From Bacteroidota bacterium (GTDB taxonomy: Bacteria > Bacteroidota > Ignavibacteria > Ignavibacteriales > Ignavibacteriaceae), in contig JADFLR010000008.1 in the NCBI GenBank assembly GCA_022564295.1, forward strand, positions 1 to 64,000: DNA of 64,000 bases, written 5' to 3'. The position numbers and the translations under genes were made by a program. Position 1 is the stretch's first letter. Each line of letters opens with the position of its first letter. Under the pieces are notes generated by a model. That model saw only the letters and a list, made by a program, of their open reading frames with translations, ran no database searches and was not told the origin of the DNA. This document shows positions 2,084 through 12,534 of this stretch, piece by piece.

Positions 2084-2416
2084 ATGGGCGCTCAACCCCT
2101 TCGCATCAAGGAACCCTTTGGGACCTGTGTCGTGAGTGGAGAGGAGGTTACGGTAACACCCCCTCATGGCCTTTTTTCCTCACGCCAATACTCATTCGAC
2201 CGGTCTCGCCAGCTAGCAACGATTACCGACCGTCGCCTTGCGGTATTCTCCTCGAAGAAGAGCGTAGAGTTCCCGCACATCTCCTTCGGAATATCACAGC
2301 GAGTTGGCGCGGCCTACTGCATAGACATGTTCTGTCAGATGCCTAACCAGGCACTTCGTGTTTATGAGCTGACTGGCTACACTGACAGCCCCAATAGGCT
2401 TGTGGAAATGAAGGCT
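2084..2416 (+). CDS. Unknown protein, 3' end lost at the assembly junction
   Basis: ATG at 2084 is preceded by a strong ribosome binding site (AAGGAGG at 2072-2078), which decides this start over upstream in-frame codons. About 110 residues are visible: a short, strand-rich soluble protein with the segments VVSGEEVTVTPPHG, RQLATITDRRLAVFSSKK and ISFGISQRVGAAYCIDMFC. No signal peptide or transmembrane segment is seen. The reading frame stays open by chance to 2530, but from about 2416 the DNA codes for a CopB ATPase on the other strand, so the true C-terminus is missing. Family not recognised. Confidence 0.55.
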
Positions 2417-2420
2417 GCGA
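2360..2420. other. Probable chimeric junction between two genomes
   Basis: Base composition changes abruptly from GC-rich (left) to AT-rich (right). Two coding regions on opposite strands both break here: the plus-strand gene starting at 2084 and the minus-strand CopB ATPase. The ATPase matches its family as far as LGLAVPLVIA (codon at 2416-2418) and then continues with non-homologous residues to a stop at 2377. The exact point cannot be fixed by eye. Confidence 0.75.
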
Positions 2421-3429
2421 TAACCAATGGAACTGCCAGACCAAGCGCATGCGGACAGGTGATTACCATTACAGTAACCATTCGTTCAAGAGCAAAAGCA
2501 AAATCCTTGTTACCGATAGCAAGCCAGTAAATTAAAGTAAATGTTCCGCCAAGGATAGCAATTATTGTAAGCCAGAATGCTGCACGGTTTGCCAGATCCT
2601 GAGTTTTAGATTTACTGTCTTGTGCTTCCTTTACGAGCTCAATTACCTGTGAAAGGAAAGAATCCTTCCCGGTTTTCTCAACTATAACTTCAAGCGAACC
2701 TTCACCGTTAACTGCTCCACCCATAACTTTTTCTCCAGCATTTTTCATTACCGGTTTTGATTCACCGGTAAGCATTGCTTCGTTAACTGAAGATTCCCCT
2801 TCAACTACAACTCCGTCTGCTGGAATTTTTTCTCCCGGCTTAACTAATATTCTATCGTTTGTTTTAAGCTCCTCAAGAGGAACATCAACAATATTTCCGT
2901 CTTCCATAATTTTATGTGCATCAGAAGGCATCAGTTTTGCAAGTTCCTCCAGAGCTTTTGATGCACCCATCACCGATTTCATTTCTATCCAGTGCCCCAG
3001 AAGCATAATATCTATTAAGGTAACAAGCTCCCAGAAAAAGCTCTTGCCACCTAGACCAAACACAACCGCACTACTGTAGAAATACGCCACAGATATAGCA
3101 ATTGCAATAAGTGTCATCATACCGGGCTGTAATTTTTTCAGTTCATCGAAAAGACCCTTTAAAAATGGATAGCCGCCGTAAAAGTATACAACAGTGGAAA
3201 GGGCAAAAAGGACGAACTGCGATCCTGCAAAACTTAATGAATCATCCAATCCCAAGAATTTCTGTATCATCGGTGAAAGGAGTAATATAGGAATGGTCAG
3301 AGCAAGAGATATCCAGAATCTTCGCTTGTAATCTTCGATCATATGTGAATGATCGTGATGTTCGTGACCGCCTTTATGCTGATGACCGTGATTTTTATGT
3401 TCATTCCCGGCTTGATGATTATGCTCCAT
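2416..3429 (-). CDS. copB: CopB-type copper-transporting P-type ATPase, N-terminal two thirds of membrane part only
   Basis: P1B-type ATPases pump heavy-metal ions across the inner membrane. This fragment has a His-rich N-terminus (repeated HxH, about residues 1-30), paired transmembrane helices, the actuator-domain TGES motif (MLTGESKPV) and the intramembrane metal-binding CPH motif (ITCPHALGLAVPLV). CPH is typical of the CopB/P1B-3 group. The phosphorylation motif DKTG, nucleotide-binding domain and last helices are absent because sequence homology ends at 2416, and a few unrelated codons then run to a stop at 2377. The start is ATG 3429 with GGAAGGA seven bases upstream; a TTG 15 bases further up is less likely. 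It is the last gene of the metal-resistance island and is almost certainly cut by an assembly join rather than a real short protein. Confidence 0.85.
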
Positions 3430-3448
3430 TATTGATCCTTCCAATTAA

Positions 3449-3741: not shown

Positions 3742-4803
3742 CTAATTTATAATAGTCACATTTATTACTTTAAGACCTATATTTCCGTTACCTTTAAAAA
3801 GGAGTCCTACCTCACCAGCATCTGATTCATCACCATGCCCATGAAGCAATAATTCATTATCAATATATCCTCTAAAATGATCTCCGTCACTGATGTTTTT
3901 TATTAAAACCCAGTTCTTAATATCAAGTTCACTTTCTTCAATTATATATTCCTTCTCATTTATTACTTTACCAAGAGCAATAGCTCGTTCTCCAATTTTC
4001 ATAAAATCAAAATTATTTTCATTGTTGAAGTGATGTACTAAATATACAGAACCTTTAAAAGAATCGAGATTTAAACTTACTTCAATTTGAAGATTTTTCA
4101 TTTTGTTTTTTGAAAGGAATAATATGGGTTCATTTACGTTAAACTCTATAAAGGTTTCCCCAGTATGTACTGTTGGATTAGCTGACTGGAAAGACCCCTT
4201 TACCCATTGAAAATTATCTTTGAGGGCTTCAACAACTCCCCCGGATGCAAGTAATCGCCAGGAACCAATGTCGTTTTTAACAAACGTTGAGTCCGAAATC
4301 TGATTTTCTGAATGATTCGATGGGTCTTTAATTATCTCTGTTTGCACTAAGTTACCTGTACCCAAACCATAACCAAAGACAAGCTTAGCGCCATGATCTG
4401 CAGTTTGATATACAAAATAAAGTCCGACTAAGCCAATAGAGATCAATGGTAATACAAAAAGTAGTTTCGCATTTTTAAATCCGAAATGAACCAAGATTCT
4501 TACAAGTGTAAAAATTCCCCAAAACCAAACAGTAATATTTGCCCAATCTGCATGATCCGTTAAATGAGTAATAACCTGGGGTAGTAAGGTTAATGAATCG
4601 GCTGCGTCTTTGCCAGTGAAGAATGCAATCAGCGCGAATATTGTTCCAAATATGTATAAGGTAATTGCGCTGTTCCGTAACCAGCTATACTTTTTAAAAA
4701 CTAAACCAGCTAAATCGAATAAGACTGCAATAATTAGTAGTACTATTGGAAAGTGAATTATAATTGGATGAATATTAGGTGCCCATTCTGGTACGAATTG
4801 CAT
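3742..4803 (-). CDS. DUF2231-type membrane protein with C-terminal beta-sandwich-like domain
   Basis: Residues 1 to about 155 form four to five transmembrane helices with the DUF2231 signature: an N-terminal HPIIIHFPIVLL segment, then FTGKDAADSL and HADWAN. The His residues in HPxxxHFP and in HLTDHADW are the family's conserved polar sites in the membrane. Residues about 175-350 are soluble and strand-rich with a pattern like laminin-G/concanavalin folds (KDDIGSWRLLASGGVVEAL to GLKVINVTIIN), predicted to face the periplasm. Start ATG 4803 has AAAAGGAGT just upstream. It lies in the metal island between a Met/His-rich exported protein and copB, but a terminator (4857-4895) separates it from the cus genes. 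Function unknown; a link to metal handling is inferred from position only. Confidence 0.7.
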   Translation of the reverse strand: MQFVPEWAPNIHPIIIHFPIVLLIIAVLFDLAGLVFKKYSWLRNSAITLYIFGTIFALIAFFTGKDAADSLTLLPQVITHLTDHADWANITVWFWGIFTLVRILVHFGFKNAKLLFVLPLISIGLVGLYFVYQTADHGAKLVFGYGLGTGNLVQTEIIKDPSNHSENQISDSTFVKNDIGSWRLLASGGVVEALKDNFQWVKGSFQSANPTVHTGETFIEFNVNEPILFLSKNKMKNLQIEVSLNLDSFKGSVYLVHHFNNENNFDFMKIGERAIALGKVINEKEYIIEESELDIKNWVLIKNISDGDHFRGYIDNELLLHGHGDESDAGEVGLLFKGNGNIGLKVINVTIIN

Positions 4804-4924: not shown

Positions 4925-5377
4925 TTATTTTACTTCAAAGTCATTCTCTTCGAGGTTGGTTTTTGCTTCTTCAATAGTTACTTCTTTCAGTTTCATCTCA
5001 CATAAAGGACAGGTTCCTGGTTCATCCGAAATCACATTCCAATCCATGATGTCCTGGTAAACTTTCCCATCACCGTTTTTATCTATTGCCTCAAGGTCAA
5101 TAACGCCTTCGCGTACAATTGAGTTTTTATCTTTCATCATACCTTTAGAATCATTCTTTATCATCTTGTTTTTATCCATATTCATATGATCTTTTGACAT
5201 ATCCATTTTGGTAGAGTCCATTTCGGTTGAATCCATTTCGTTACTGCTGCTCATACTGTTTTTATCACCACTGTGTTTGTGATCTTTTAAATCGTGATCC
5301 TGAGCAAAAGATAAACCTGTTGCTATCAGCATAGCAACGAAGAAAGCTAAAACGAGTTTTGAAGTTTTGTTTAACAT
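4925..5377 (-). CDS. Exported Met/His/Asp-rich protein with EF-hand-like loop and CPxCxM metal-binding motif
   Basis: A 150-residue protein with a signal peptide (hydrophobic segment ending FAQDHD), then a low-complexity region dense in Met, His, Asp and Lys (HDLKDHKHSGDK, repeated MDST), as in periplasmic copper/silver binding proteins. The last about 65 residues contain DKNGDGKVYQD, which resembles a calcium-binding EF-hand/dockerin loop, directly followed by DWNVISDEPGTCPLCEMKL, close to the heavy-metal binding domain (HMBD) motif of CusB proteins. Nearly the same module ends CusB (9060-10703). The gene closes the cus operon, 34 bases after the PII-like gene, and has AAGGAAA before its ATG. 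Likely a periplasmic metal buffer or chaperone; the role is inferred from composition and context. Confidence 0.75.
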   Translation of the reverse strand: MLNKTSKLVLAFFVAMLIATGLSFAQDHDLKDHKHSGDKNSMSSSNEMDSTEMDSTKMDMSKDHMNMDKNKMIKNDSKGMMKDKNSIVREGVIDLEAIDKNGDGKVYQDIMDWNVISDEPGTCPLCEMKLKEVTIEEAKTNLEENDFEVK

Positions 5378-5411
5378 TTTTCTGTTTCCTTATATAGTTA
5401 TTAAGTATTAA

Positions 5412-5753
5412 TTAAAGATTATTGAAATCATTTTCAGCGCCGGTTTTAATTCTAACTGCCTTATTAATAGGAGAGACAAATACCCATCCGTCACCGCTAC
5501 GCCCGGTTTCCCCGTAGGTACTTATTACATTGACCAGTTGATCAACATTAGAATCATTACAGACCAATTCAATTTTTACAACTTGGCTATACTTTTGTAC
5601 ATATTCATTTGAGTAACTGAATGCTTCTTTATCCACCAATTCGGCGATGGCATTTGCATCGATCAAAGTCATTCCATTTATATCGGCTTCTTCTAATAAG
5701 GCTGTAACAGTATCAGCTTTTTCTTTTCTTATATATGCAATTATTTTTTTCAT
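5412..5753 (-). CDS. PII-like signalling protein of the metal-efflux-associated group
   Basis: The 113-residue product has the PII (GlnB) fold signature: start MKKIIAYIRKEKADTVTALLEE, a variable T-loop-like middle (SYSNEYVQKYSQVVKIELV) and the C-terminal signature GRSGDGWVFVSPINKAVRIKTGAE, which matches the GDGKIFV..V..AIRIRTGE region of GlnB. The usual uridylylated Tyr T-loop context is not present. PII-superfamily members beside CusA/CzcA efflux pumps are known as a separate group (often called PII-NG). The gene begins two bases after the cusA stop, so translational coupling is likely. PII trimers bind nucleotides and contact membrane transporters. Here the natural partner is CusA, but that contact is inference. 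Confidence 0.85.
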   Translation of the reverse strand: MKKIIAYIRKEKADTVTALLEEADINGMTLIDANAIAELVDKEAFSYSNEYVQKYSQVVKIELVCNDSNVDQLVNVISTYGETGRSGDGWVFVSPINKAVRIKTGAENDFNNL

Positions 5754-5754
5754 A

Positions 5755-8700
5755 TTATTTCTCCGTACGATTTTCAGTTATCAGGTTCAGTTTCTTCAGT
5801 TCTCTTTTTTTCCATAAATAAAACACTGCCGGGAAGATTGTCAGTTCCATAATAAAGCTTGTAAAAATACCTCCTATCATAGGGGCTGCAATCCTTTTCA
5901 TTACATCACCACCGGTACCATACCCGATTACAATTGGAAGCAAACCAAAAAAGGTAACAGTAACTGTCATCATTTTAGGTCTGATTCTTTTAACCGCACC
6001 TTCAAATATTGAATCCTTAAGATTTGCTAATGTTTTGAGCATTCCCTTTTTTTTCCAGTTTTCATAAGCAATATCTAAGTAAAGAAGCATAACCACGCCA
6101 GTTTCGGCACTAATACCGAGCAACGCTATTATTCCAACCCAAACTGCAACACTGGTATTATAATCGGCTAAATAAAGGTACCAGATTGATCCGACCATAG
6201 AAAATGGAAGTGCGAGAAGAATTATTCCGGTTTTTACAAACGATTTTGTATTGAAATAAAGTAGTAGTATTACTAAAAGTAACGTTATTGGTATGACGAG
6301 GGCTAATTTTTTAGCCGCTCTTTCCATATACTCATATTGTCCACTCCATATCAGTGAATAACCCTCAGGTATTTCCACTTGCTCGCCAATAATTTTCTGA
6401 GCATTTGCTACATACGTACCGACGTCTATATTTTCTAAATCTATATAAACCCATGCATTCGGTCTTGCATTTTCAGATTTAATAACCGGAGGACCCTTTG
6501 TAATTGTAATCTCACCAAGTTCTTCCAGGGGTATATTACCACCGCCGTGTAGAGGAACTAATACTCTTCTCAGTGATTCAATATTTTCTCTGTAATCTCT
6601 CTGATATCTGAGATTTACAGGATACCTTTCCAAACCTTCAACCGTTTTGGTAATATTCACGCCACCGATTGCAGACATAAATACATCCTGAACATCACCA
6701 ATTGTAAGACCGTATCTTGCTATAGAATTCCGGTCAATTTTGAAATCTACATAATTACCCCCCACTGTACGTTCTGCGAAAGCAGAGCGTGTACCTGGAA
6801 TAGTTCGTGCAATCTTCTCAATTTGTTTTCCAATTTGTTGAAGAACTTCGAGATCCGGACCACCGATTTTTATACCCACAGGTGTTTTTATTCCTGTTGA
6901 AAGCATATCAATCCTTGTTTTTATGGGCATTGTCCATGCATTTGTTAAACCGGGTATTTGAATTGCAGCGTCCATTTCTGCAATTAATTTTTCCGGAGTC
7001 ATCCCTTCGCGCCATTCTTCCTCTGGTTTAAGCTGTATAGTTGTTTCAATCATAGAGAGTGGAGCAGGATCGGTTGGTGTTTCAGCTCTGCCAATCTTAC
7101 CCATTACTGATTCAACTTCCGGAAAAGTTTTGATAATTTTATCAGTTTGCTGAAGTAATTCCCTTGCTTTAGTAATTGAAATACCCGGAAGAGTAGTGGG
7201 CATATAAAGCAGATCACCTTCGTATAGATCAGGCATAAACTCTGAACCAAGTTTTGAGAACGGGATATAAGTAATTAATACAATAACAACTGCAACAACT
7301 ATTACCCACCATCTTCTCTTTATAACAAAATCGACTATAGGATGGTATATACTCATTAGAAATTTTGTAAACGGGTTATCTTCTTCTTTCCTCATCTTTC
7401 CGCGAACAAAATAGCCCATTAACACAGGCACAATTGTAATAGATAAAATAGCGCCTGCTGCCATTGCGTATGTTTTTGTATACGCCAGAGGTTTAAATAA
7501 TCGTCCTTCTTGTTGTTCCAAAGCAAATACAGGAAGAAATGAAACAACCACAACTAATAGTGAGAAAAATATTGCCGGACCTACTTCTTTAGAAGATTCC
7601 AAAATAACAGCCCAGTGAGGTTTTTGTTTTCCTTCCGGTTGCAATTGATTATGAAGAATATGTGAGTGTGAGTTTTCAACCATAATTATTGCTGCATCCA
7701 CCAGCACTCCAATGGCTATAGCTATGCCGCCAAGAGACATAATGTTAGCATTTATTCCCTGTATATGCATTACAAGCATTGCAGCTAATACAGCAGTGGG
7801 CAGAGTAAATATAACAACTAAAGAACTCCTGAAATGAAGCAAGAAACCGATAATCACAAGAGCAACAATAATTCCTTCCTCTAACAACTTATCACCAAGA
7901 TAATCAACTGCTCGTTCTATCAAAGCTGACCTGTCGTATGCAGTAACAATCTCTACATCATCTGGTAAAGAAGATTTTAATTCTTCCAATCGTTTCTTAA
8001 CACGTTCAATAACAGCCAGCGCATTTTCGCCAAATCGTTGAATAATAATTCCACCGACGACTTCTCCCTCACCGTTCCACTCTGCAATACCGCGTCTAAG
8101 TTCAGGTCCTATATCGATATTGGCTACATCTTTAAGATAGATTGGGGTTCCCGTACTCTTGTTCGTACCTATGGTTATGATTTTCAAATCGTTTACACTT
8201 TTTATGTATCCTAATCCTCGAACCATAAATTCAGTTTCCCCCATTTCCATTAATCTACCGCCAACATCATTGTTACTTCTCTTTATAGCCATCTTTACCT
8301 TGCTAAGTGGTATATCGTAAGAGGCAAGTTTAATAGGATCGACATTTACCTGGTATTGTTTTACAAAACCACCAATACTGGCTACTTCAGAAACTCCGGG
8401 GATAGCAGAAAGCTCGTAGCGTAAAAACCAATCCTGAATAGAACGTAATTCCTGAAGGCTTCGCTTATCAGATTTTAATATGTATTGATAGACCCACCCC
8501 AAACCGGTTGCATCCGGTCCTAACTGGGGAGAAACTCCTTCCGGGAATTCACTCTGCATCGAACTCAGGTATTCAAGTACCCTGCTTCGAGCCCAGTAAA
8601 TATCTGTGCCGTCATCAAATATTATGTATACCATTGAAAATCCGAAGAAGGAATAACCACGCACATCATTGGCAAAAGGTACCGAGAGCATTTTAGTCGT

Positions 8701-8934
8701 TAAGGGGTAGGTAACCTGGTCTTCAACAATTTGCGGACCCTGACCCGGATACTCTGTATAAATAATTACCTGTACATCGCTCAAATCAGGTATAGCATCA
8801 ATAGAGGTGTTGTTTATTGCCCAGATACCTGCGAGTATCAGAGCAACTGTAAGAATAATAACTAAAATTTTATTATTTATTGACCACTCGATTGTTTTTG
8901 CAATTAAGCCGTCTTTTTGAGTACTTGATATCAT
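5755..8934 (-). CDS. cusA: CusA/CzcA-family heavy-metal efflux RND transporter
   Basis: At 1,059 residues it has the full length of heavy-metal RND pumps. The N-terminal cytoplasmic segment and first helix lead into DAIPDLSDVQV, a family hallmark. Helix 4 carries AIGVLVDAAIIMVEN, including the proton-relay Asp. Later GISAETGVVM and RIRPKMMTVTVTFFG carry the Glu and Lys matching those used by CusA for proton transfer. These motifs are closer to the monovalent-metal (Cu/Ag) type than to CzcA. It acts in the inner membrane as the proton-driven engine of the CusCBA complex, exporting metal through CusC. Upstream cusB is separated by a 95-bp palindromic repeat (8962-9056), downstream is the PII-like gene. 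Start ATG 8934. Metal specificity was not tested beyond motifs. Confidence 0.93.
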   Translation of the reverse strand: MISSTQKDGLIAKTIEWSINNKILVIILTVALILAGIWAINNTSIDAIPDLSDVQVIIYTEYPGQGPQIVEDQVTYPLTTKMLSVPFANDVRGYSFFGFSMVYIIFDDGTDIYWARSRVLEYLSSMQSEFPEGVSPQLGPDATGLGWVYQYILKSDKRSLQELRSIQDWFLRYELSAIPGVSEVASIGGFVKQYQVNVDPIKLASYDIPLSKVKMAIKRSNNDVGGRLMEMGETEFMVRGLGYIKSVNDLKIITIGTNKSTGTPIYLKDVANIDIGPELRRGIAEWNGEGEVVGGIIIQRFGENALAVIERVKKRLEELKSSLPDDVEIVTAYDRSALIERAVDYLGDKLLEEGIIVALVIIGFLLHFRSSLVVIFTLPTAVLAAMLVMHIQGINANIMSLGGIAIAIGVLVDAAIIMVENSHSHILHNQLQPEGKQKPHWAVILESSKEVGPAIFFSLLVVVVSFLPVFALEQQEGRLFKPLAYTKTYAMAAGAILSITIVPVLMGYFVRGKMRKEEDNPFTKFLMSIYHPIVDFVIKRRWWVIVVAVVIVLITYIPFSKLGSEFMPDLYEGDLLYMPTTLPGISITKARELLQQTDKIIKTFPEVESVMGKIGRAETPTDPAPLSMIETTIQLKPEEEWREGMTPEKLIAEMDAAIQIPGLTNAWTMPIKTRIDMLSTGIKTPVGIKIGGPDLEVLQQIGKQIEKIARTIPGTRSAFAERTVGGNYVDFKIDRNSIARYGLTIGDVQDVFMSAIGGVNITKTVEGLERYPVNLRYQRDYRENIESLRRVLVPLHGGGNIPLEELGEITITKGPPVIKSENARPNAWVYIDLENIDVGTYVANAQKIIGEQVEIPEGYSLIWSGQYEYMERAAKKLALVIPITLLLVILLLYFNTKSFVKTGIILLALPFSMVGSIWYLYLADYNTSVAVWVGIIALLGISAETGVVMLLYLDIAYENWKKKGMLKTLANLKDSIFEGAVKRIRPKMMTVTVTFFGLLPIVIGYGTGGDVMKRIAAPMIGGIFTSFIMELTIFPAVFYLWKKRELKKLNLITENRTEK

Positions 8935-8961
8935 TAATTTTCTCCAAAACTTTTTTTAATA

Positions 8962-9056
8962 GTCATTGCGAATCCCGATTCATCGGGATGAAGCAATCTC
9001 ATTAATTTTGGTAGATTGCTTCGTCATAGGGCTACTGCTGTGCTCCTCGCAATGAC
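8962..9056. repeat. Palindromic intergenic repeat (GTCATTGCGA...GAAGCAATCT type)
   Basis: The element begins GTCATTGCGA and ends TCGCAATGAC. Inside are a second inverted pair (GAAGCAATCT / AGATTGCTTC) and a small palindrome (CCCGATTCATCGGG). This is a widespread bacterial intergenic repeat of MITE type. It fills almost the whole cusB-cusA gap, so it is transcribed within the operon and will fold into a long hairpin that could affect mRNA stability or the CusB:CusA ratio. Confidence 0.85.
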
Positions 9057-9059
9057 CAG

Positions 9060-10703
9060 TTAATTTTTATATTCAAAACCATGTTCATTAAGATTAGCTT
9101 TTACTTCATCAATAGTAAATTCACGAAGTTTCATTCCACATATAGGACAGCTACCCGGCTCGTCGGATATCACATTCCAATCCATTATATCCTGATATAG
9201 TTTTCCATCTTTATTTTCATCAATGGACTCCAAATCGATAGTACCTATTCTAATGAGTGGACTTTTTAATTCCTCAGTTTCTTTGTTATAATCACCGGTC
9301 GATTCATCCATTTTCAGATCGGACATATCGTCATTGGATTCTTCTGAGCTTGTAAATTTGGTTAAAGCTGCTCTAAGATTACTTTCGGAATCAATTAGGA
9401 ATTGAGCCGAAGTAACAATTTTATTCCCATCAGTTAAACCATCCAATACCTGGTAATAACCATCTGCGTAGTTTCCAAGTTTAACATCAACCGGTCTAAA
9501 CTTACCCTCGCCAAGCGCGAGAATAATAATATTATTCTGTCCGCTTCTTATGATCGCGTCTTCAGGTACTACCGGGTAGTTTCCAAGGTCTTCGCCTTTT
9601 ATTTTTATTGTGGCAAACATCGAGGGCTTCAATTCGTTATTGTAATTAGGCATATCAATTCTAACTTTTACAGTTCTTGTTTTAGAGTCTAGAGTTGGAT
9701 AGATAAATGAAACCTTGCCTTTAAATATTTTTCCGGGCAAAAAATTAAATCTTATATCTGCAGCCGAGCCGACTTTTATTTTAGAAAGTTCATATTCATA
9801 AACATCAGCCATAAGCCATAAATTTCGTAAATCGGCTATTCTTAAAAGAGGAGAACCGGAATTAATTTTTTCTCCTTCTGTAACTTGTTTGTGAATTACT
9901 GTTCCATCAAATGGTGCATAAAGTGTAACATATTTATTTATCTCTTTTGTTTTTCTTAGTCGCTCAATTTCAAGGCTGCTAATATCAAGTAGTTCTAATT
10001 TTCTAATACTATTATTTGTAAGTTCTTTACCGCTGGCGGCAATGTTTTCATCAGAGCTGTTCATTACAGAAGCAGCATAGGATAGAGCAGTGATATATTC
10101 CTGTTGCGCTGCCACAAGTTCAGGTGAGTATATGTCGATTAACTTCTCACCTTTTTTAACTTCCTGTCCTGTATAGTTAACATAAAGTTTTTCCACCCAG
10201 CCACCGACTTTAGTTGTAATTACAAATTCATTTCTTTCATCTATTTCTAATATTCCGTTTGTAATTACCTGTGCATTCAGTTTTCTAACTTTTATAGCTA
10301 CTGTTTTTAAATTCATATTTTGTTGTGTTGTACCATCTATTGTTACAACACCGGTTTCCGAACCTTCATCTTCGTATATGGGCACTAAGTCCATTCCCAT
10401 CCTGGATTTCCCAGGTTTATCGTAAACTTCATTTGGGTTCATAGGTGCTCGCCAGTAAAGTATTTTTCTTTCGCCGGAAGTTCGCTGATTATTACCTCTA
10501 ATTGGTGTGAGGTTCATTCCACAAATCGGGCAGTTGCCCGGTTCATCCAATATTAATTCGGGATGCATACCGCATGTATAAAGCTGTCCGTCAGCAGTTA
10601 CAAGCATATGATCATCACTGTTGGGACTAAACACTAAAATGTAAAGTAAAGCTGCTGTCAGTGCTAATGCAAGTACTCCGATAATTATATTTTTATTTCT
10701 CAC
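9060..10703 (-). CDS. cusB: CusB-type periplasmic adaptor with extra metal-binding domains at both ends
   Basis: This membrane-fusion protein links CusA to CusC. An N-terminal anchor helix is followed by a heavy-metal binding domain (YTCGMHPELI...PGNCPICGMNL, about 42-68) and the CusB Met-rich segment (YWRAPMNPNEVYDKPGK...MGMDLVPIY, about 84-110). The core has lipoyl/barrel-sandwich parts (GWVEKLYVNYTGQEVKKGE and YAPFDGTVIHKQVTEGEKI), a helical hairpin between them and a beta-barrel. The last about 65 residues add DENKDGKLYQD plus DEPGSCPICGMKL, a near copy of the C-terminus of the neighbour at 4925-5377, which is not usual for CusB. The start is GTG 10703 with CGGAG upstream. It lies between cusC (22-base gap) and cusA in one operon. 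Confidence 0.92.
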   Translation of the reverse strand: MRNKNIIIGVLALALTAALLYILVFSPNSDDHMLVTADGQLYTCGMHPELILDEPGNCPICGMNLTPIRGNNQRTSGERKILYWRAPMNPNEVYDKPGKSRMGMDLVPIYEDEGSETGVVTIDGTTQQNMNLKTVAIKVRKLNAQVITNGILEIDERNEFVITTKVGGWVEKLYVNYTGQEVKKGEKLIDIYSPELVAAQQEYITALSYAASVMNSSDENIAASGKELTNNSIRKLELLDISSLEIERLRKTKEINKYVTLYAPFDGTVIHKQVTEGEKINSGSPLLRIADLRNLWLMADVYEYELSKIKVGSAADIRFNFLPGKIFKGKVSFIYPTLDSKTRTVKVRIDMPNYNNELKPSMFATIKIKGEDLGNYPVVPEDAIIRSGQNNIIILALGEGKFRPVDVKLGNYADGYYQVLDGLTDGNKIVTSAQFLIDSESNLRAALTKFTSSEESNDDMSDLKMDESTGDYNKETEELKSPLIRIGTIDLESIDENKDGKLYQDIMDWNVISDEPGSCPICGMKLREFTIDEVKANLNEHGFEYKN

Positions 10704-10724: not shown

Positions 10725-11990
10725 TTATTGTAAACTTGTACCAACTAAAAATTCCAGATCAGCTATTAGCTTTAAGTAATCTGTTTTTAGCTTATATAAA
10801 TTTGTTTCTATTTTGAATAATAGATCCTGTGCATCAATTACATTTATAAAGTCAACTTCGTTTACCTGGTAACCGGCTAAAGTTGAATTTAGATTTTGCG
10901 CTGCCTGGGGCAGCAAACCTTCTTCAAATAATTTAATTCTTTCTTCCAGTGATTCCAGGTCGGCTATGGCAGATCCGAATCTTCCATCGAGGAACTGTAA
11001 TGCGGAAGAATATTGTTCAGAATGGAATTCCTGAAGTGAAATGGCTTCCTGTTCTTTAGCAGTATATTTGCCACCGTAGTTAAGCGGCAGCGAAATTCCC
11101 AGGGCTATGGTAAACAAATCTGTCCCGCCCATAGTTGAATTAACTAAATTCTGTCTGAAAGAATAGTTAACGCCTAAACTTATATCCGGGTAAAATTCTC
11201 TTTCGGCAACCTTTAATTTAAGACCTGCGCGGTCTTCGGATAACCGAATACCTTTTAATAATGGACGATTGCTTCTTGCGAGTGCATTGAGTTCCTGGGC
11301 ATTCAGGTTGACTGTTTTTATTTCACCAATTAATTCAGTTTTAATATCGGTTTTGGCATCGCGCAGAAGAAATGCATTAAGTTCCGATAGAGTTGATTTT
11401 TCTTTGCTTACTATCTCTGCAATCTTTTCATCAATTCTTGTCAGTTCTAATTGTACTTTAACCAGGTTCTGCTGGCTGGCAGTGGAAACCGAATACTTTA
11501 CACTAACTACATCAGCAATGTCTCTCAACAATTTTTTACTTTCTTCTGCATAAAAAATTGCTCTGCGAAAGTAATTAAGATTATAATATTGCTTCGTTAC
11601 CATTTGCCTTATTCCATTTTCCGTATCATTTATTTCCTGATCGATAATCAAAGTATCGATTGCTGTGGCTTCTTCAATTGCAGATAGTTTTCCGGGGAAG
11701 GGGAACATTTGACTTAAACCGATAGCTTTTTGAGTCATCGGATCTTGATCAAAGGAAAAAGAATTAGTGGGAATATTCCGTAATCCCAGTATTAAAACCG
11801 GATCTGGAAGATTTGAGTTCTGATCAATTCTGCTATATGCAGCATTACGTTTTGCCTCAAGCATTTTTATTTTAGGGCTTAGCAAAATTGCTTGCTCAAT
11901 CATTTGATCTAGATCATCTACCTGGGCATAATTATTAAATGCAAACAGCATTAATAGAAATACCCAAATTGAATTTTTAATTGAATACAT
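10725..11990 (-). CDS. cusC: CusC/TolC-family outer-membrane efflux protein
   Basis: The 421-residue protein has a signal peptide (hydrophobic stretch ending NNYAQ), then two homologous helical halves typical of the outer-membrane efflux protein family. Examples are LDQMIEQAILLSPKIKMLEAKRNAAYSRI-like and ALARSNRPLLKGIRLSEDRAGLKLKVAEREFYPDISLGVNYSF-like stretches, split by a beta hairpin. It forms the trimeric channel through the outer membrane for the CusBA pump. It is the first RND-pump gene; a structured inverted-repeat element (11998-12106) lies directly upstream of its start and after the Cys-rich gene. Shorter than E. coli TolC/CusC but normal for Bacteroidota-type metal-pump OMPs. Confidence 0.9.
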   Translation of the reverse strand: MYSIKNSIWVFLLMLFAFNNYAQVDDLDQMIEQAILLSPKIKMLEAKRNAAYSRIDQNSNLPDPVLILGLRNIPTNSFSFDQDPMTQKAIGLSQMFPFPGKLSAIEEATAIDTLIIDQEINDTENGIRQMVTKQYYNLNYFRRAIFYAEESKKLLRDIADVVSVKYSVSTASQQNLVKVQLELTRIDEKIAEIVSKEKSTLSELNAFLLRDAKTDIKTELIGEIKTVNLNAQELNALARSNRPLLKGIRLSEDRAGLKLKVAEREFYPDISLGVNYSFRQNLVNSTMGGTDLFTIALGISLPLNYGGKYTAKEQEAISLQEFHSEQYSSALQFLDGRFGSAIADLESLEERIKLFEEGLLPQAAQNLNSTLAGYQVNEVDFINVIDAQDLLFKIETNLYKLKTDYLKLIADLEFLVGTSLQ

Positions 11991-12108: not shown

Positions 12109-12534
12109 TTAAATCAGAAGGTTTGAGTTTTGTAAATATATATCGTTATCGATATGAGGAGGCGATGTATTGTGTAAATTGTGTTTGAAATGATCTAACG
12201 GATTAGAATCCAAATGAATGTTGGTTTTAATTAAAATTACAGTAATGTATGTATTTTTATTCGTCTCGATGTTAACAAATAAAAATTGGTCGGAAACTTT
12301 GTTTTCAACCATTTCAATTATACAGCAAACAGGCATATAACCGGAAAGAGTTACTTTTGCCTCATCTTTTTCACAGCAGCCGGAAGACACTTTAGTTGGT
12401 GCCATATCTTCCATTCCGCACGCTTCAGTATTAACCACATTCAAGGTTTTGCAGAAGTGCCATGTAAATGTAAGACCTGTTGTCGAAACAAGAAGAATTA
12501 AAATTAATCCATATGTGTAAAGTTTTTTGTTCAT
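12109..12534 (-). CDS. HYC_CC_PP-type exported Cys-rich protein
   Basis: The 141-residue protein has a signal peptide with the frequent Bacteroidota start (LILLVSTTGLTF), then HFC (about 26-28), CGMEDM, CC (about 53), PVCC (about 68) and a SPP near the C-terminus. This order matches the HYC_CC_PP family of small exported proteins, common beside copper efflux genes. Conserved Cys/His/Met suggest copper binding in the periplasm, which is inference. It is the first gene of the cus operon. A promoter-like pair lies at 12541-12571 so close to the ATG that the transcript may be leaderless. A decayed copy of its 5' half lies at 15252-15412. Confidence 0.75.
   Translation of the reverse strand: MNKKLYTYGLILILLVSTTGLTFTWHFCKTLNVVNTEACGMEDMAPTKVSSGCCEKDEAKVTLSGYMPVCCIIEMVENKVSDQFLFVNIETNKNTYITVILIKTNIHLDSNPLDHFKHNLHNTSPPHIDNDIYLQNSNLLI

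Follow-up and report, generated by a model that had tools for sequence, protein, structure and literature searches.

The window analysed here, a stretch of 64,000 nucleotides from contig JADFLR010000008.1 of a bacterium of the order Ignavibacteriales (Bacteroidota), carries a cus gene cluster (Table 1) in which the CusB-type periplasmic adaptor and a small Met/His-rich protein end in the same domain of 66 residues (~xxIRxG...GFxxK), called here the module and referred to as fused in CusB and free in the small protein. A sequence-only reading of this DNA had proposed near-identical C-terminal ends for the two proteins, and both open reading frames as well as a BLASTP alignment of CusB with the free protein (E = 2e-31) bear it out, with 69% identity over the shared 66 residues. 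Used as a query against the whole genome (G000; 4.07 Mb in 59 contigs), the 65-residue CusB tail matches the free protein with E = 1.2e-27 (69% identity); elsewhere it gives just two weak hits, to a fragment of 39 codons on contig C44 and to the N-terminal HMBD of CusB itself (1.7e-5 and 1.8e-5). The former (G000:C44:168553-168651, locus L003) is an orphan C-terminal piece of the module, with a Met-rich gene and YceI-like genes, recognized by eye, as neighbours; it is perhaps a decayed free copy.

The C-terminal half of the module is assigned to the HMBD family (PF19335), with 32.4 bits (8.9e-08) for the free protein and 94.2 bits (4.1e-27) for CusB at a cut-off of 23.6; in CusB three stretches are recognized, two at the N-terminus and the C-terminal module. 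The CPxCxMKL soft-metal motif pointed out in the sequence-only reading is present, though not as a new motif, since it is that of this known domain. CPxCxM and the upstream Met of the HMBD are kept, while the Cys and His of the motif YxCxMHP are mostly gone, both window copies having Asp at positions 25 and 28; the module is therefore filed as a divergent variant, a family member by profile in which the canonical YxCxMHP motif fails. Over 124 distinct modules, 62 fused and 62 free, eight columns are invariant (D15, D19, M27, N30, D34, C42, M44, and L58), and C39 is found in 121. These modules represent 127 of 214 hits, selected as complete, ungapped, and of at least 75 bits; left out were one truncated hit and 86 lower-scoring ones, including N-terminal canonical HMBDs and divergent copies (e.g., the first copies in L009, L060, and L062, and those of L071 and L072).

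The AlphaFold model of the isolated module is confident (predicted local distance difference test, pLDDT, 95.1; predicted template-modelling score, pTM, 0.81). Its best match in the PDB by Foldseek is the HMBD of LpCopA (8ovl), at an E-value of only 0.4 (root-mean-square deviation, rmsd, 1.2; TMt 0.74; 31 columns), and VIA gives for the same structure a Z of only 3.4 with 35 aligned residues and rmsd 2.1, VIA-align otherwise listing two rows at Z 2.1. These matches are statistically weak, yet, as far as a model can tell, they agree with the HMBD profile. Among solved structures searched by sequence, the single tail reached a best E of 0.07; with a profile, the Aart zinc finger was the top row (3.4e-04) and 8ovl the second (0.016), but the former, no stretch of which passed alone, was not counted as a relative.

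The window CusB aligns with that of E. coli at 30% identity over 386 columns (2e-54), and this alignment covers only residues 75-457, so that the canonical N-terminal HMBD, the tether, and the module are additions relative to the E. coli protein. A full-length CusB model from an 8-row alignment has a mean pLDDT of 65.4 and pTM 0.40, with residues 431-481 below 50 and the module behind them at about 70-82. The model suggests that the module sits on a flexible tether of the CusB core; the tether is suggested rather than shown, because a part of the core (381-421) also falls below 50.

Table 1. Features of the cus gene cluster in the window
Feature	Position	Strand	Basis
TolC-like/CusC-like outer-membrane factor gene	10725..11990	-	named from translation and position; relatives have homologues at this place
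CusB-type periplasmic adaptor, 547 aa; module at the C-terminus after two N-terminal HMBDs	9060..10703	-	HlyD_D23 1.3e-75; HMBD, three stretches
CusB N-terminal HMBD 1, canonical YTCGMHP..CPICGM	10503..10580	-	PF19335 2.4e-10; match to LpCopA HMBD 8ovl 4.2e-06
CusB N-terminal HMBD 2, Met-only form as in CusB/SilB (YWRAPM..MGM)	10380..10454	-	PF19335 8.7e-08; matches CusB 3h94 and SilB 5a4g
Probable flexible tether, CusB residues 451-481, between core and module	9261..9353	-	pLDDT <50 over residues 431-481
CusB C-terminal module: EF-like loop D495/N497/D499, HMBD M507/C522/M524, end helix	9063..9260	-	alignment, HMBD profile, model
CusA RND pump	5755..8934	-	TIGR00914 1171.6 bits
P-II-like protein, between cusA and free module gene	5412..5753	-	PF00543 5.3e-15
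Free module protein, Met/His-rich, 150 aa	4925..5377	-	HMBD 8.9e-08
Likely signal peptide of free protein (MLNKTSKLVLAFFVAMLIATGLSFA)	5303..5377	-	by eye from sequence
Met/His-rich stretch of free protein	5126..5302	-	by eye from sequence
Module of free protein: D99/N101/D103 loop; M111, C126, M128 putative site	4928..5125	-	alignment; AlphaFold
DUF2231 protein	3742..4803	-	cluster gene
Cut CopA	2377..3444	-	cluster gene

The putative coin-metal site and the calcium-type loop

In the solution structure of the LpCopA HMBD, Ag+ is held by M44, C59, and M61, whereas ligand-type shifts were absent for C42, C56, and H45 (PMC11970713). The sequence match of the module to 8ovl is gapless over residues 44-69, and the profile aligns columns 21-51 with residues 38-68 of the chain; by this match the three Ag+ ligands correspond to M27, C42, and M44 of the module, present in 124/124, while LpCopA C42, H45, and C56 fall on D25, D28, and C39. 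Column 25 is occupied by Asp in 112 modules, Cys in 11, and Ser in one; column 28 by Asp in 108, Cys in eight, His in five, and Glu in three; column 39 by Cys in 121 and Asp in three. Judging from this alignment, the positions that hold the coin metal in LpCopA are fixed in the module, whereas its other zinc-ribbon positions have been free to change. Binding of Cu(I)/Ag(I) by the module is likely.

The sequence-only reading had also proposed a calcium-type loop in the module, but a calcium site is not supported by the data. As in EF-hand and other DxDxDG calcium loops, positions 1, 3, 5, and 6 are conserved (D15 in 124, N17 in 123, D19 in 124, and G20 in 120 of the 124 modules). Unlike in those loops, an acidic residue at position 12 is found in 0/124, and the AlphaFold model has a short helix (11-14) followed by a strand (21-24), with neither a helix-loop-helix nor an exiting helix. 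The EF-hand_5 profile gives 14.1 bits against a cut-off of 25.9, Pfam EF-hand models remain under their cut-offs, and an EF-hand_5 search of the organism's own genome returned no match at E <= 0.001. The absence of an acidic position 12 and the strand after the loop leave the calcium site unsupported; the DxNxDG loop is best called a half EF-hand cap and its binding of Ca2+ is doubtful.

In the free copies the module is preceded by other elements. A hydrophobic stretch near the Met start is recognized by a simple rule in 60 of the 62 free rows, which makes their secretion probable as far as sequence can indicate. The Met/His-rich stretches, pooled over the 62 free rows, contain 16.7% Met and 8.1% His; for CusA/TolC encoded at these loci the values are 3.5% and 0.8%; ahead of the fused modules the enrichment is weaker (7.6% Met and 3.7% His). 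Some free relatives have a YHS domain behind the module, with a match in 5/10 scanned proteins and two over the cut-off; in L046, L054, L055, and L082 such a YHS-type domain means that a single small protein combines two metal-binding domains.

Genomic distribution of the free and fused copies

The module is conserved among the relatives of the window's organism, with a match at E <= 1e-3 in 33/41 genomes, a few of these being weak HMBD matches only (e.g., G022), and in its own order, where 99/146 genomes have a match at E <= 1e-10. In a sample of the phylum, 59/395 genomes match at E <= 1e-6 and 33/395 at E <= 1e-20, the latter being 31 of the own order and two of family f11 of the class. A second sample of 395 genomes, drawn in the same way, includes 207 with CusB-like proteins, 36 in the order and 171 outside it; the full module is found in 31 of the former and in only two of the latter, so that CusB does not carry it as a rule across the phylum. 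The four order genomes without a CusB match have no module either. At most 15 candidates per genome were scored in the module sample and at most five in the CusB sample, so that misses are not absolute. Weaker partial matches, in which CusB begins with a DxNxDG-type loop joined to an HMBD of canonical or near-canonical form, were observed in L067-L070, L076, and L077, and the only two matches in a plasmid collection, both partial, are Salinibacter CusB proteins with an N-terminal loop and HMBD (NZ_CP030363 and NZ_CP030371); others of this weaker kind come from small free proteins whose genes neighbour that of CusA in L071 and L072. Because of such matches elsewhere, the pairing of loop and HMBD appears wider, and is probably older, than the C-terminal module. 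In the distant genus g91 (L125-L132), an in-frame TGA in CusB was considered and found to be an ordinary end stop: of eight genomes inspected seven had been flagged (G193 had not), in all eight the main CusB match by tblastn is free of internal stops, and in L127, L129, and L132 the TGA lies at the very end of the protein in the read-through frame.

The occurrence of the module alone or fused to CusB shows that both forms are conserved. Together with its scarcity in CusB outside the order, this runs counter to the refuting outcome named in the sequence-only reading, a standard domain of all CusB homologues of the phylum that has no conserved free form. Among 79 CusB proteins of the fetched loci, 41 have the tail and a nearby free copy, 21 the tail only, eight a free copy only, and nine neither; where a tailed CusB is followed by at least 6 kb of downstream sequence, a free copy is present in 36/42 loci. 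These counts are conditional on the fact that most loci were picked for having module hits, and some are near-copies of each other (e.g., L046/L047 and L060/L119); L045, L079, and L084 were omitted because they duplicate L007, L005, and L009. Also omitted were L001-L004 and L014-L043, short loci that overlap with others or were not fetched for neighbourhoods. Two tandem modules are carried by CusB in L046, L047, L055, and L095, the last according to row names. A fusion of the P-II-like protein with the module in L050 (open reading frame of 314 aa) is doubted because a signal-peptide-like stretch lies inside it; more probably, the open frame contains two separate starts.

A recent duplication as the origin of the two window copies is rejected by a tree of the 124 rows, in which the fused copy groups with fused modules only (a set of 25 rows; support 99/92) and the free copy with free modules only (12 rows; 100/81). 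The fused and free labels require 12 changes on this tree versus 41.7 in shuffles, none of 500 being as low, and the starred branches force at least five, for which reason the module seems to have moved between the two states more than once; the 66 columns leave many forks unresolved.

With regard to CusF (PF11604), no match was found in 96 genomes of the order, including the organism's own, while both controls, E. coli and Caulobacter, gave a signal, and BLASTP gave no alignment between the free protein and E. coli CusF. A negative CusF search is also reported for the Bacteroidota Bizionia argentinensis, in whose CusB a Cys in place of M64 makes the N-terminal site Met-Cys-Met (PMC11213822).

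As for the other genes of the cluster, that of the P-II-like protein adjoins CusA in many relatives too, and its product resembles the PII-NG group, reported beside a Czc pump in Geobacter (PMC7726332). At positions 12109-12534 of the window lies the gene of a Cys-containing protein of 141 residues with no Pfam match, which recurs in L007, L052, L061, L062, and L063 close to where the cus genes begin. The first 2.5 kb or so have a G+C content of 52-59%, against 27-46% further on, and CopA (2377-3444) is cut just past its CPH motif at that edge; the composition edge within positions 1-2750 of the window and the cut CopA are probably due to a contig chimera or an insertion.

A candidate metal relay and its alternatives

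The sequence-only reading had considered the module a shared docking or metal-relay unit with a calcium-type loop, and of this proposal the relay endures: the unit is both free and fused to CusB in one operon, is conserved in many genomes, and has the residues that form a Cu(I)/Ag(I) site known from experiment, which makes a relay between the free protein and CusB the best, albeit unproven, reading. More precisely, the module is rather probably an HMBD-derived periplasmic metallochaperone for Cu(I)/Ag(I) that stands in for CusF and is in addition fused to the C-terminus of CusB, as the CusF-like domain is in SilB. The module would be built from an HMBD with its rubredoxin-knuckle fold, an N-terminal DxNxDG half EF-hand cap, and a C-terminal helix, and would keep a tri-sulfur Met-Cys-Met site (M27, C42, and M44) after having mostly dropped the canonical Cys and His (D25 and D28). 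The secreted free protein, through its Met/His-rich sponge, could collect Cu(I)/Ag(I) in the periplasm; the tethered tail may act as a local acceptor or buffer beside CusA, from which the metal would be passed by ligand exchange to the N-terminal HMBDs of CusB or to the Met site of CusA.

The last step is consistent with the window CusA, in which M578, M628, and M677 align with the three Met (M573, M623, and M672) reported to bind copper in E. coli (PMC11213822); of the other Met positions of the E. coli pump that were checked, 391, 410, 486, 501, and 1009 are kept. Some observations weigh against the relay. Positions 271, 403, 738, and 755 of E. coli CusA are not Met in the window protein; taken together, the kept and lost Met suggest a Cu(I)/Ag(I) pump whose inner path differs somewhat from that of E. 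coli. The acids of the EF-type loop, N30, D34, and L58 are as invariant as the sulfur ligands, so that the metal site cannot be recognized by invariance alone. With a Foldseek E of 0.4 and a VIA Z of 3.4, it is mainly the sequence profile that speaks for a kinship in fold. Six of the 42 tailed loci have no free copy nearby (L008, L010, L011, L066, L109, and L123) and in eight loci a free copy stands beside an untailed CusB, hence the pair is not obligatory. Lastly, the HMBD of LpCopA is judged by its authors to be a regulatory, sensing domain and not a delivery domain (PMC11970713).

A sensing function can also be imagined for the module: the CusB tail would bind Cu(I)/Ag(I) and alter the engagement of CusB with CusA, and the free copy would tune this switch by competing for the same dock or metal. 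The position of the tail after a low-confidence stretch of the CusB model and the operons devoid of a free copy agree with this alternative, which is nevertheless unlikely, as a conserved, probably secreted Met/His-rich form suits a carrier or a sponge better than an intramolecular switch. Less probable still is a mere storage sponge, in which both copies add coin-metal capacity in the manner of SilE/PcoE without specific transfer; the Met/His-rich stretches, weaker ahead of the fused modules, and the tandem modules in CusB of L046, L047, and L055 speak for it, but a fold of 66 residues with eight invariant columns, several of them off the sulfur (N30, D34, and L58), implies more than capacity, and free and fused copies mostly form separate lineages. 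The faintest chance is given to a docking unit with structural zinc or calcium, in which a zinc-ribbon-like knuckle and a Ca2+ loop would hold the partners together. In its favour, the loop residues D15, N17, and D19 are practically as invariant as the sulfur ligands; against it, the canonical Cys/His are mostly lost while the Ag+ ligands stay, and the loop falls short of an EF-hand at position 12 and by profile.

A bolder version of the relay, to which only a small probability is attached, regards the module as a device for two metals: cap (DxNxDG) and coin-metal site (Met-Cys-Met) would fold as one unit, a hard ion (Ca2+) or its absence would shape the latter, the free carrier would load in the bulk periplasm and unload at the CusB tail, and the lineage would have replaced CusF by another fold and re-invented the free-plus-fused layout.

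If the relay holds true, two unrelated folds, the CusF barrel and the HMBD knuckle, each serve both as a free coin-metal carrier and as a C-terminal tail of CusB, and it becomes testable whether this tail is a general acceptor or a proteobacterial oddity. The modules would provide 124 natural HMBDs with six candidate ligand positions each, of which just those three that nuclear magnetic resonance had identified are fully fixed. A likely periplasmic copper chaperone would also be named for an order whose sampled genomes gave no CusF match.

Comparison with known systems

Both the domain family (HMBD) and the kind of place, a metallochaperone that is free and at the tail of CusB, are known, and it is for their combination that no report was found: in the literature searched for a CusB tail bearing an HMBD or an EF-hand, which covers few subscription journals, no listed title or abstract deals with the module, and the available parts of PMC7558416, PMC10434189, and PMC11213822 do not mention the module.

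SilE/PcoE-type proteins are Met/His-rich and periplasmic, and the free protein resembles them in its Met/His-rich, probably disordered stretch; SilE is not known to have a folded HMBD module.

The HMBD of LpCopA (PF19335, 8ovl) is among the closest known systems, with a profile over the cut-off, the best fold match, and the same spacing of the three Ag+ ligand positions. In contrast to this N-terminal domain, the module mostly does without the Cys/His of YxCxMHP, adds the DxNxDG cap and the C-terminal helix, and forms the end of CusB or part of a small protein of its own. The N-terminal HMBDs of CusB and SilB (3h94 and 5a4g) belong to the same family, present at the N-terminus of the window CusB too; however, the E. 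coli CusB and SilB sites are Met-only and N-terminal, while the module is C-terminal and has the cap and the end helix.

In layout the module is similar to CusF/SilF and to the CusF-like C-terminal domain of SilB (PF11604). Adaptors of heavy-metal efflux (HME) systems may have extra N- or C-terminal domains, the C-terminal one acting as a metal chaperone in SilB and existing alone as CusF (PMC4446572), and CusB-CusF fusions are on record for 22 organisms (PMC3548706); CusF and the module alike are small domains that occur alone as well as C-terminally in adaptors of the CusB type. Unlike the module with its HMBD knuckle, CusF binds metal in a beta-barrel, with no sequence or profile relation between them, so that the module would perform the same job as E. 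coli CusF and the C-terminal domain of Cupriavidus metallidurans SilB by means of an unrelated fold.

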